64,000 bases of DNA from Bacteroidia bacterium (GTDB lineage Bacteria > Bacteroidota > Ignavibacteria > SZUA-365), in NCBI GenBank assembly GCA_027493955.1, contig JAOSJT010000001.1, positions 3,273,131 through 3,337,130 on the forward strand. The letters run 5' to 3'. Shown piece after piece: positions 1,474 to 11,616 of the stretch. Below the pieces are notes generated by a model. That model saw only the letters and a list, made by a program, of their open reading frames with translations, did not search any database and had not been told where the DNA came from. Position 1 is the first letter of the stretch, and each line of letters opens with the position of its first letter. The translations under genes were made by a program, and so were the position numbers.

Positions 1474-2883
1474 ATGGACAAAAAGCGCACAATCATTGAT
1501 TTTTTCGACCGTGAAGCCCCTGCGCGCAGCAGAAAGCGGAAGCGCTTCGGCTACTTTTACCGGTTGACCGAAAATTATCTGCGCTTTTATGTGCCCGAAG
1601 GTTCGTCCGTCCTGCTCGTCGGCTGCGGCACCGGTGAGATGCTGCACGCGCTCAAGCCCTCCCGCGGCGTGGGCATTGATATCAGTGGGGGCATGATCGA
1701 GCAGGCGAGAAAGAACTTCCCGCAGTATGAATTCCACACCCAGGATGTCGAATCGTTGCATCTGGACGAGACTTTCGATGTGGTGATTTTTTCCGATGTC
1801 ATCGGGTATCTTAACGACATCCAGACGACGCTTTCGCGTATTCAGAGCGTTTGTGATGAAAACACGCGCGTGATGATCACCTATTTCAGCATTTTCTGGC
1901 AATTCCCGTTGCGACTGGCGGAAAAGGCCGGGCTGAAAATGACCTCGCCGTTTTTCGCCTGGCTGGAACCGGACGACATCGCGAATCTGCTGGATCTGGC
2001 CGGCTTCGACATCATCCGGAAAAATCTGAAAGTTCTTTTTCCTCTCTACATTCCGCTGTTGTCGTTCTTCTTCAACTTTTTTCTCGCAAACCTTCCCATC
2101 ATCCGGCGCCTCTGTCTGCTGGAAATCGTCTCCGCCCGCCTCCGTCCGTCCGGCGAGCGACACGAGAAGTCCGTCGCCGTTCTCATCCCCACACGGAACG
2201 AAAAAGGAAACATCGCTGCCGCTCTGGATCGTCTCCCTGCTCTCGGCAGTCACACCGAGGTGATTTTCGTGGATGGTCACAGCACCGACGGCACGCTGGA
2301 AGAGGTGGAGCGCCAGGCCGCGCTGCGTCCGCACATGGACATCAGCTGGTATTCCCAGGACGGCAAGGGCAAGGGCGACGCGGTGCGTAAGGGCTTTTCG
2401 CTCGCAAAAAGCGACATTCTGATGATTCTGGATGCGGACCTGACCGTCCCGCCCGAAGAATTACCGAAATTCTACGACGCACTCGTGCAGGGCAAGGGTG
2501 AGTTTATCAACGGCTCACGCATGGTGTATCCGATGGAAGACCGCGCCATGCGTTTTCTCAATGTGCTGGGAAACAAGTTTTTCAGCATCGTCTTCACCTG
2601 GCTGCTGGACCAGCGTTTCAAAGACACGCTGTGCGGCACCAAGGTGCTCACGCGTGAGAATTATCTCAAGGTTGCGGCGAACCGTTCGTATTTCGGAGAT
2701 TTTGATCCTTTCGGCGATTTCGACCTCATCTTCGGCGCGGCCAAGCTGAATCTGAAAATCACGGAAATTCCCATCCGCTATCGCGAACGCACCTACGGCA
2801 GCACCAACATCAGCCGCTTCCGTCACGGTCTGATCCTGCTCCGTATGTGTCTTTACGCCTACAAGAAGATCAAGATGATATGA
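1474..2883 (+). CDS. SAM methyltransferase-GT2 glycosyltransferase fusion
   Basis: One 469-residue frame carries two enzymes. The N-terminal half is a class I SAM methyltransferase: motif I VLLVGCGTG (46-54), acidic GVGIDIS (65-71), FDVVIFSDVIGYL (101-113). A hydrophobic stretch (about 185-215) links it to a soluble GT2 domain of the dolichyl-phosphate-mannose/undecaprenyl-phosphate type, with VAVLIPTRNEKGNI (234-247), VDGHSTDGT (267-275), LDADLTVPPEEL (319-330) and RYRERTYGSTNIS (435-447). The last motif matches the conserved end of DPM1-like transferases. The architecture suggests glycan or lipid-carrier modification in which methylation and sugar transfer are coupled, but the acceptor cannot be deduced. 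The hydrophobic linker may bring both domains to the membrane. Confidence 0.85.
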   Translation: MDKKRTIIDFFDREAPARSRKRKRFGYFYRLTENYLRFYVPEGSSVLLVGCGTGEMLHALKPSRGVGIDISGGMIEQARKNFPQYEFHTQDVESLHLDETFDVVIFSDVIGYLNDIQTTLSRIQSVCDENTRVMITYFSIFWQFPLRLAEKAGLKMTSPFFAWLEPDDIANLLDLAGFDIIRKNLKVLFPLYIPLLSFFFNFFLANLPIIRRLCLLEIVSARLRPSGERHEKSVAVLIPTRNEKGNIAAALDRLPALGSHTEVIFVDGHSTDGTLEEVERQAALRPHMDISWYSQDGKGKGDAVRKGFSLAKSDILMILDADLTVPPEELPKFYDALVQGKGEFINGSRMVYPMEDRAMRFLNVLGNKFFSIVFTWLLDQRFKDTLCGTKVLTRENYLKVAANRSYFGDFDPFGDFDLIFGAAKLNLKITEIPIRYRERTYGSTNISRFRHGLILLRMCLYAYKKIKMI

Positions 2884-3027
2884 CGCAACGTGCCGGCTCG
2901 GTGTACGCCATCCGCGGGGATATCCGGACCGAGATGGATGGTGTTTACTGACGGTGTTTCGCAACGGATGTGCGCAGGCATTGTGCTTCCTGGGAACCAC
3001 ACACGATCAGGAACGCCGACACGCTAG

Positions 3028-3813
3028 CTAGGTGCTCCACGTACTCTGCAACAGACACACATCCACACCATCCGAGGCGATGGCGTGTGTTGCAACAATG
3101 TGCCCGTCGCGCTGTTCCCACGCGCTGCGGGCGAAGACGGATCCCCCGTAACGCGTTTCCCGGCGATACTGAACCTGCAGCTTCGTCATGTTCCCGTGCT
3201 GCCGCATGTTTTCGGGCAATGCCTCCAGCGCCCACTCCACATAGCGGAGATTGTTCACGTGCCCGTTGTGATCGATGTCCGACATGCGCACACTGAATTC
3301 CCTTTCCTCCATGGCATGGGCAGGGGGAGGGAGGGCCGGAGGCATTGTGAGTTCCGGGGACTCGGCCGCGATGCCATAACCCGAAAACATCGCTTCATCG
3401 ATGCGCCGCGGCCTGCGCCGAACCGTGTCGATGTACACCCAATGCGAAAGCGCATCGACGCAACGCGACCCGTCTTCGCTGTCAATGGCGAAGCTGCGTG
3501 TGGCAAGCATGTTGCGAAACGCGAGCGGCCGCGTGTGCACCAGCGCGGTGGAGCCCAGCGTCGGGCGCTGGTGTATGACGATATCATACTGCGTCAGCAG
3601 CCAGGCGACGTTGTTCGCGGCGTAAAAATCCAGCCCGATTCCGCATTGCTCACTCTGAATCATCGCCATGTCTTCGAAATACCGCAGCATGCTGAACACC
3701 GTCTGCCGGCGACGGGCGTCGCAATCGTAATAGTGCAAAAAGTACTCCCGCGAAAAGGGAAGCCCCGCGGTGCCGTGATCCGCTGGAAGTACGGTGTCGT
3801 CAGTTTCTGTCAT
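3028..3813 (-). CDS. Acyl-ACP thioesterase (FatA/FatB-like, double hotdog)
   Basis: Likely hydrolyses acyl-ACP (or acyl-CoA) to free fatty acid in the cytoplasm. The 261-residue length fits two hotdog folds. The N-terminal fold carries the family signature SREYFLHYYDCD, then SMLRYFEDMA. The second carries DIDHNGHVNNLRYVEW, which holds the conserved Asp, Asn and His of the active site, followed by a beta-rich end (LQVQYRRETRYGG). The ATG at 3813 lies just before the first fold. It faces the preceding plus-strand gene tail-to-tail. A 4-hydroxybenzoyl-CoA-type thioesterase is less likely because those have one hotdog domain. Confidence 0.8.
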   Translation of the reverse strand: MTETDDTVLPADHGTAGLPFSREYFLHYYDCDARRRQTVFSMLRYFEDMAMIQSEQCGIGLDFYAANNVAWLLTQYDIVIHQRPTLGSTALVHTRPLAFRNMLATRSFAIDSEDGSRCVDALSHWVYIDTVRRRPRRIDEAMFSGYGIAAESPELTMPPALPPPAHAMEEREFSVRMSDIDHNGHVNNLRYVEWALEALPENMRQHGNMTKLQVQYRRETRYGGSVFARSAWEQRDGHIVATHAIASDGVDVCLLQSTWST

Positions 3814-9932: not shown

Positions 9933-10091
9933 ACGACATCCTAGCCCGACGTCGCGCCTCCGTCCACACCCTCACATTGTCGTACATCCCTGTCCACCCG
10001 CTGGCGAGCAGTGGCGGCTTTCTGCCTTGTACCGAGTGCGACCACCTATATATCTTAAAGTTCGTTCTTTTCACTGCTTAGGGAGCATTTT

Positions 10092-10904
10092 GTGAAACGA
10101 CTTAAAGAACTCAGTACCCGCCGCGTGCGGGAGTACGACTATTCGAAGCTGTCGAAGCATCTCGTCGTGTTCAAGACCAGGAAGAATGCCGAGATCCTCG
10201 GAACGACGAAAGACGGCATCACCACGCTCAGCGACGCCGGACGCGCATTTCTCGATGTGCTCGGTCAGGCGTTGCAGAATTTCCCGTGCATTCGTCTTCA
10301 TGAACTGAACATTCGTCCCTCCGAGGTGGAGCTGGCGTTGGAGATCACGGAAGTCCGGAATCCCCGGAAAGCGCCGCCGGAGGACAGTGACGAATGGCTA
10401 TACTACCGGCGCATCATGACACTGCCGGAGTTCATGGGGTATCTGAAGATGAACAGCGCGCATCGCATCAACGCGTTGTTCGGCAGGAACGGCGGCGCAG
10501 TCTGGGCGCGGCGTTATGCATCATGCGTTCTGGAGGACGAGGACGTATTGACCCGCGTGTACGCGGAGTTGCGGGAGGAGTGGAGCCATGTGGTGGTGGA
10601 TCCCGCGCAGCAGACGAAGAAGGGGAAGCAGGCCTCCACCTTGGCCGATGTTCTTGCATCGGAATTCGGCGGCACGGGTGCGCTGTCCGTAAATGGACGC
10701 AAAGGGCGTGCGGTATCGGATCAGCTCGCCGGGGCGATGCTTCTCGGCCGCGTACTGCTGCTGACGGGCGCGCGGAGAGATGAAGCGGTACGCACTGCAT
10801 CCAAGAAGGGCGTCGCGCGTGGGGGAGGCGCCGGTGGCATGGCGGGCAGGCGAGGCTCGGTGGTCCGGTGCCTGGGTCCGGCACGGATTTTTCTTTCCGA
10901 GTAA
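10092..10904 (+). CDS. RAYT (REP-associated transposase)-like protein, apparently catalytically dead
   Basis: The 270-residue protein follows the layout of IS200-like REP-associated tyrosine transposases: GITTLSDAGRAF (42-53), NFPCIRLHELNI (63-74), FMGYLKMNSAHRIN (114-127), GGAVWARRYAS (134-144) and VLEDEDVLTRVYAELREEW. Where active members have the MPNHxH metal motif, this one has RPSEVEL (75-81), so both histidines are gone. The helix that should carry the nucleophilic Tyr reads KMNSAHRIN, with Ser where I would align the Tyr. The C-terminal third is basic and Gly-rich with no clear homology. The start is GTG 10092 after GGGAG. REP-like palindromes lie about 220 bases downstream. It may be a domesticated binding protein or a decaying transposase. 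Confidence 0.7.
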   Translation: MKRLKELSTRRVREYDYSKLSKHLVVFKTRKNAEILGTTKDGITTLSDAGRAFLDVLGQALQNFPCIRLHELNIRPSEVELALEITEVRNPRKAPPEDSDEWLYYRRIMTLPEFMGYLKMNSAHRINALFGRNGGAVWARRYASCVLEDEDVLTRVYAELREEWSHVVVDPAQQTKKGKQASTLADVLASEFGGTGALSVNGRKGRAVSDQLAGAMLLGRVLLLTGARRDEAVRTASKKGVARGGGAGGMAGRRGSVVRCLGPARIFLSE

Positions 10905-11616
10905 GCGGAAGCCGAAGAGCACATTTTTTTATCGCAAGGAGACAGGGACAGCGCCCCGGGACGACAGACGTCAGGCGGAGAGGGGAAGCTCTGTGCATTT
11001 GTCTGGATTTGGGTCCGTCTGTTGAGGGATGATGGTCGGAAATGGAGGAGTGTGGTGGTTTGGGTGGTGGTTTTGAGGGCTGGGACCTGGTGTGGCGGGG
11101 GTGTTTCCGGGTCCTGGGGAGAAATTGGGCGATACATGAATCGCCCAATTTCGGATTCGGCCGTACCCGCGTGGCGATACATGAATCGCCCAATTTCGGA
11201 TTCGGCCGTACCCGCGTGGCGATACATGAATCACCCAATTCTGGTTTTCAGGATGCGCTCGGATGGCAATACATGAATCGCCCGAATCGCCTCCGAGACG
11301 CTCTCGTATCGGGTATCATCGGTCGCACAAACCCACCAGCACGCATCTTCCCTCCTCCGTCAATCCTCAACCAGAGTTCTCGATCCCCGAGTACGACTTG
11401 GCTGCCTGTCAGACACCGGTATTCTCGAATGCGCGTTGTACGCCGTCATTCGACTGAGATCCAATTTTTTCGGCGATGACTCCTGTGAGAACTATTTGGA
11501 TAAGATATGGATATCTCTATCCGCGTTCCGCAGTGTTCCGTGTGCTCGCTGTCGAAAGCGCACGATTTTCTGTATCTTCCTGTGTTCCGCTCTGTTCACG
11601 AATCGAATGAGGAAAC
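10905..11616. other. Intergenic region with REP-like palindromes
   Basis: About 710 bases with no supported gene. It holds the palindrome array at 11122-11290, flanked by low-complexity G/T-rich sequence (about 11030-11110). Short open frames here are products of the repeats. The final 100 bases should contain the promoter of the M24 peptidase gene, but I see no clear consensus. Confidence 0.6.
11122..11290. repeat. REP-like palindrome array (four units)
   Basis: Four units share the core ACATGAATC. Unit 1 (11122-11151) is a perfect inverted repeat with 12-base arms (AAATTGGGCGAT and its complement) around the loop ACATGA. Units 2 and 3 follow at exact 45-base steps, so 11129-11173 and 11174-11218 are near-identical direct repeats. 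Unit 3 carries a G-to-A change in its right arm, and unit 4 (about 11263-11281), 47 bases further, is more diverged. Head-to-tail palindromes next to a RAYT-like gene are the hallmark of REP/BIME elements. I found no other copy in this window. Confidence 0.85.

Follow-up and report, generated by a model that had tools for sequence, protein, structure and literature searches.

What does a REP-associated tyrosine transposase (RAYT) still do once its catalytic residues are gone and its palindromes have stayed beside it? The question is raised by a gene in the 64-kb stretch of DNA analysed here (the window), which a preliminary description took to encode a domesticated hairpin-binding protein. Binding remains the most economical reading of this locus. 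The idea of a single domesticated gene has to be replaced, as the gene belongs to a dispersed, multi-copy cassette family. We consider it probable that a selected hairpin-binding protein has spread together with its array as a gene-plus-array cassette, the movement of which would need catalysis from outside. The other copies, a C-terminal extension, a G-rich spacer and the largely cassette-bound distribution of the palindromes all go beyond the preliminary description.

The RAYT fold and its lost catalytic residues

The open reading frame at 10092-10904 (forward strand) has 270 codons and starts with GTG. It is preceded by a ribosome binding site, AGGGAG (10080..10085, forward strand), which reads AGGGAGCAT or GGGAGCAT in all nine copies of its subfamily (A, see below). 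Further upstream, TTTCTGCCTTG (10019-10029) and TATCTT (10051-10056) form a promoter-like left boundary (10019..10056, forward strand). A similar version of this motif is found ahead of the other A copies, while the surrounding sequence diverges, which suggests that it may serve as a promoter.

The 270-residue product is a catalytically dead RAYT-like protein (10092..10904, forward strand) according to alignment, an AlphaFold2 model and Foldseek. All three agree on the RAYT scaffold of about 165 residues that had been proposed from the sequence, which is alignable over approximately residues 11-165. Block means of the model are mostly 85-98 for residues 21-160, fall to 59-62 in the loop 91-110 and lie below 50 for residues 193-270; the model was built from an alignment of active relatives, a bias towards the RAYT/Y1 fold. 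Foldseek matched the model to ISDra2 TnpA, IS608 TnpA and the REP-bound RAYT 4er8. Database profiles are less telling: Pfam Y1_Tnp gives 14.8 bits, below its 23-bit cut-off, the whole protein showed no known domain in NCBIfam, PHROGs or PADLOC, and the profile of alignment A1 found only weak, unrelated matches in the PDB (E 0.12 or more).

HuH and Tyr make up the catalytic centre of these enzymes, the latter being Y115 in TnpAEc, according to PMC8266576. Relatives read MP[ND]HxH where the window protein has RPSEVEL (residues 75-81; 10314..10334, forward strand), and alignment with them bears out the earlier assignment, with H78 and H80 both replaced by Glu. In an alignment of 58 of 80 homologue loci fetched by name from GTDB contigs, the window protein has Glu in each of the near-invariant His, His and Tyr columns, at residues 78, 80 and 159. 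The HUH count in the name-fetched loci (80/80) was excluded as evidence because the search patterns themselves include the HUH motif. The homologue profile also aligns with the E. coli RAYT 4er8, where the Tyr column corresponds to the DYIYINP stretch, a YIxxN-type motif. The nucleophile column is thus occupied by Glu159 (10566..10568, forward strand) and not by Ser122, as was first suggested. Ser122 lies in the KMNS helix (residues 110-129, TLPEFMGYLKMNSAHRINAL; 10419..10478, forward strand; alignment and AlphaFold2 model), which is the best conserved core stretch across subfamilies A and B. It is invariant in both, is also Ser in several active relatives and was rejected as nucleophile.

Alignment A1 contains no conserved His, and an intact His-x-His (HUH) or Tyr was not found elsewhere in the fold. 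The combination noted at the outset, in which fold and array persist but every catalytic group is gone, therefore holds for E78, E80 and E159, and the window protein most likely no longer cuts DNA. Could Glu have taken over from the histidines in an active transposase with new chemistry? This would be compatible with the three Glu residues that fill the catalytic columns in the window copy, with the invariance of E80 and D149 in alignment A1 and with the fact that copies went on spreading. However, the acidic replacements remarked on earlier are a property of the window copy and follow no general rule: across the A and B copies, E, S or C occurs at residue 78 and E, A or R at residue 159, leaving only E80 invariant among the three. 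Because E78 and E159 vary, we regard a Glu-based active site as very unlikely; in addition, the Tyr column holds no conserved nucleophile and the GTAG guide of the palindromes is gone.

Residues 171-270 and the stop codon (10602..10904, forward strand) form a C-terminal extension. It shows no known domain in Pfam, is without database match and was seen only in this genome's family.

Cassette copies, selection and insertion sites

The source genome (G000) is a single contig of 5,237,942 bases with 16 matching places. These comprise nine copies of subfamily A (L001-L008 and L019, 68-100% identical), five of subfamily B (L020-L024, 35-38% identical in this search and 32-38% identical overall), the distant gene L025 and one fragment. 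HUH is present in none of the 14 A and B copies (0/14), and Tyr is likewise absent from all of them.

Several other loci of the same genome resemble these copies in part. L025 (G000:C1:3209136-3212591) is a further RAYT-like gene that looks dead too, because by reading it has LPASAH at the HUH site and Leu at the Tyr column. It carries GTGGGAGCTTCATGGAACGCCCAC-type palindromes on both sides, ahead of the gene and, in many units, downstream (2380-3456). L031 and L033 (G000 near 1004600 and 888200) are intact RAYTs with HUH and YIxxN; they score below the Pfam cut-off, and their palindromes differ from those of the cassettes and are GTAG-tagged. L027 (G000:C1:4215650; 1980-2810) encodes an IS200-type transposase above the Pfam cut-off, followed by a long run of a different palindrome, CCCCACACTTACGTATGGGG, that alternates with a GAAGTGTCGTCCTGCGG-like unit.

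Matches were found in 11 of 61 genomes, namely the source genome and 60 relatives. At E 1e-9, the A+B profile matched 57 of 391 genomes of the class; its C-terminal part matched the source genome only. At E 1e-12, 17 of 395 genomes of the phylum were matched, and the extension appeared in no other. Searches of GTDB contigs and IMG/VR with alignment A1 returned no other genome bearing the family, though these searches use short conserved peptides and may miss the family or omit its own genome. Every RAYT homologue that we read from relatives keeps HUH. A motif check of 42 fetched loci, the best-scoring among the matches and chosen before nine phylum loci were newly fetched, gave a matching ORF in 41, with MPxHxH in 41/41 and the Tyr motif in 38/41; these 41 rows represent 38 distinct loci (three are repeats), two of which, L031 and L033, come from the source genome itself.

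Are the dead copies simply decaying? Codon 3 of L003 is a stop, L024 ends early and has an internal deletion, and the fragment L026 (G000:C1:723308-723526) is a deletion derivative in which the 30 initial codons of an A gene are followed within ~70 nt by two A palindromes. These three would suit a decaying pseudogene family. Against this, the reading frame is uninterrupted in 12 of the 14 A and B copies and dN/dS is well below 1, which leads us to reject decay as hardly credible. For residues 1-170, dN/dS (Nei-Gojobori, NG86) lies between 0.04 and 0.29 in 41 of 42 pairs (0.05-0.22 for A pairs, 0.04-0.29 for B pairs); in the exceptional pair, L008-L019, this part differs by one synonymous change and nothing else. 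In the extension, values are 0.16-0.65, with 1.55 on five changes for L008-L019. These values indicate that the dead RAYT domains are under purifying selection. As measured here, between the genome's own paralogues, this selection may act at the level of the element and not of the host.

Masking the HUH and active-Tyr positions and leaving L025 out gives a tree in which the A and B copies group in a single clade (SH-aLRT 99). With L025 included, the dead set receives an SH-aLRT of 91 under the same masking, and the position of L025 depends on a long branch. A sister relationship of the dead clade to the active relatives L009/L010 hinges on L025: it is supported when L025 is included (99/95, and 93 in the masked tree) and loses its support when L025 is removed (34). 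The single A+B clade makes it most likely that catalysis was lost before the family spread. A loss predating the A/B split accounts most simply for the shared RPxx[VI]E, and most insertions would then have occurred after catalytic death. Identity between copies is mosaic. L008 and L019 are 97-100% identical over the gene and diverge just upstream, L021 and L022 alternate between 79% and 99%, and L001 and L006 between 94-96% and 50-76%. Gene conversion is the likely cause, and identity between copies therefore understates their age.

The window copy lies between two genes, ~1685 nt apart, that we take by reading to encode a diacylglycerol kinase-like and an Xaa-Pro peptidase-like protein. In seven relatives with both flanks, the aligned ends are 89-328 nt apart and there is no RAYT match between them; two further relatives are without the first flanking gene at this site. 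Around L021, a B copy, the flanking genes are ~1555 nt apart in the source genome. In nine relatives, the corresponding ends are 2-160 nt (six genomes) or ~600-730 nt (three genomes) apart, again with no RAYT match. The L008 site is uninformative, because its neighbours are not syntenic in relatives. The comparison of these genomes indicates that the cassette is inserted at two sites that are empty in relatives, as would be seen for a mobile element. Its left limit is not fixed, lying anywhere from about -13 to about -80 depending on the pair compared.

Purifying selection, a promoter-like motif kept at each copy and mosaic identity between copies would also be compatible with paralogous regulators domesticated by the host, which arose by ordinary duplication, were kept for host functions at each site and underwent gene conversion. 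We consider such an origin improbable. The family is present in only one of the 12 genomes searched within its taxonomic family, the neighbours of its copies are unrelated, relatives have empty sites and several copies have decayed.

The G-rich spacer and the palindromes

Between the stop codon and the core of the first palindrome lies a spacer of 223 nt (10905..11127, forward strand) with a G content of 0.43 and a C content of 0.16. Its length is kept at 220-223 nt in the nine A copies and at 198-212 nt in the five B copies. In all 14 cassettes (14/14), the first 195 nt of the spacer have a GC skew of 0.44-0.57, whereas the equivalent stretch after 37 active RAYT genes averages 0.00 and reaches no more than 0.31. 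Across the 64-kb window, the skew lies beyond 0.38 in eight of 3191 intervals, seven of them from this spacer. This strand bias may mean that the transcript, or an R-loop, has a function.

The spacer also contains a two-stem hairpin (10954..10980, forward strand) that can be aligned between A and B with registers set by hand. Over 11 rows, 97 of 99 pairs are standard, against a mean of 87.9 with arms exchanged, and one in 5000 shuffles reaches as high. The signal comes from the inner stem (43/44; 1/5000) and not from the outer (54/55; 1071/5000). The hairpin is suggestive only, because the registers were set by hand for each subfamily and one row was dropped. Rfam gave no match to the spacer above gathering scores, and an RNA fold of the entire 3' region was unremarkable (z -1.4).

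The palindromic array, which had been placed about 220 bases downstream, indeed starts 223 nt past the stop codon. A palindrome search revealed four units, none of them assigned to a strand. The first (11121..11152, core 11128-11145) has 16-nt arms and folds as single-stranded DNA with -14.3 kcal/mol (z -5.6). The core of the second is at 11173..11190 and that of the third, which has one stem mismatch, at 11218..11235; these two imperfect units fold no better than shuffles. The degenerate core of the fourth (11265..11282) marks the right limit of the array. Each of the 14 A and B loci (14/14) has its own array beside it, built from GGCGATACATGAATCGCC in A and TTCGATTCATGAATCGAA in B. The stem differs between the subfamilies, and the CATGAA centre is common to both and to some active relatives.

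Many copies elsewhere in the genome had been proposed as a sign of a recruited function. Numerous copies do exist, as the A palindrome occurs 66 times when one mismatch is allowed, against none in a backwards control and 0-1 in each of 11 genomes of the same family. However, they are mostly or wholly bound to cassettes. Among the exact A palindromes listed, 33 of 48 lie in the arrays of the nine A genes and of L026, and the B palindrome has 9/9 of its copies 3' of the five B genes and none in the 11 relatives. The remaining 15 exact A palindromes are spread over six other places, mostly within longer tandem units. Four orphan arrays with the A palindrome (L052, L053, L054 and L055; G000 near 2625800, 3435000, 4368900 and 4783300) consist of tandem units of ~118-151 bp, and no RAYT gene was noticed in the stretch fetched around each.

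Near active RAYTs, 38 of 73 palindromes have a GTAG foot, spread over 24 of 37 loci, compared with one of 41 cassette palindromes; the two sets were detected by different rules. For the systems tested, PMC8266576 describes GTAG as needed for cleavage.

How, then, do the cassettes move? They may be non-autonomous selfish elements that an intact RAYT or IS200-type transposase mobilises in trans, with the dead protein as an end-binding accessory or repressor. Suitable enzymes are encoded in the same genome (L031, L033 and L027), the cassettes are dispersed insertions, and the decay of L003, L024 and L026 is as in a selfish family. The conserved linkage of gene and palindromes could also arise if it preserved element ends required for movement in trans. 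Nevertheless, we think this unlikely, if worth serious attention. The palindromes of L031 and L033 are different and GTAG-tagged and those of L027 different again, whereas the cassette palindromes are without GTAG and are found only on the 3' side of the A and B genes.

Proposed function and relation to known systems

In the reading that we favour, the cassette would comprise a promoter, the gene for a dead RAYT whose C-terminal extension is new, ~220 nt of G-rich spacer and one or more palindromes specific to the subfamily. Because the fold is under selection although both catalytic groups and the guide are lost, binding is the function that was probably retained, and the match between subfamily and palindrome suggests that the target is the array of the same cassette. 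The dead RAYT would most likely bind the palindromes beside its own gene once these have folded, whether as hairpins of single-stranded DNA or of RNA. Their exposure could be aided by the G skew of the spacer, for instance if an R-loop forms during transcription. Palindrome binding would then regulate or protect the cassette, and gene conversion would keep its copies alike. As new intergenic sites were most likely reached after catalytic loss, the moving step would fall to other enzymes. A bolder version, which we find rather doubtful, is that the gene-plus-array cassettes kept colonising the chromosome without HUH chemistry after catalysis and cleavage guide were lost. Candidate routes would include copying tied to transcription and to R-loops formed in the G-rich spacer, where the dead protein would act as a hairpin-binding chaperone, as well as borrowed host enzymes or a replaced active site.

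The closest known systems are TnpAREP/RAYT proteins (E. coli TnpAREP, PDB 4er8; groups 2 and 3), which share the fold, the alignable core and the linkage to a palindromic array. In contrast to these, the cassette family is without HUH, Tyr and the palindrome GTAG, has a C-terminal extension and is multi-copy rather than single-copy. TnpA proteins of IS200/IS605 (ISDra2, IS608) share the Y1 HUH fold, but the dead RAYT is without the catalytic residues, stays below the Y1_Tnp gathering score and has palindromes on one side only, not hairpins at both ends. In REP/REPIN populations, short palindromes are likewise tied to a RAYT-type gene; those of the cassettes, however, are mostly confined to the arrays. 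TldR is an IS200/IS605-type nuclease in which catalysis is lost and nucleic-acid recognition kept. Its parallel to the dead RAYT is one of working principle only: the proteins are unrelated, and RNA guidance and repression are described for TldR. PMC13418256 presents TldRs as nuclease-dead, TnpB-like RNA-guided repressors.

RAYTs are characterised in PMC8049555 as single-copy, vertically inherited and not self-copying, with unknown function. In a superfamily survey (PMC6006769), 722 of 924 sequences were retained because they had both motifs, and sequences without HuH and Y were set aside as probably non-functional. Our literature search, with subscription journals mostly outside it, found no recognised report of an amplified dead RAYT family.

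Taken together, a dead, selected and amplified RAYT family would amount to a natural experiment that separates hairpin binding from cutting, and would provide an HUH-side counterpart to the nuclease-dead TnpB repressors. What a domesticated RAYT contributes to its carrier, a long-standing question, may thereby become directly testable.
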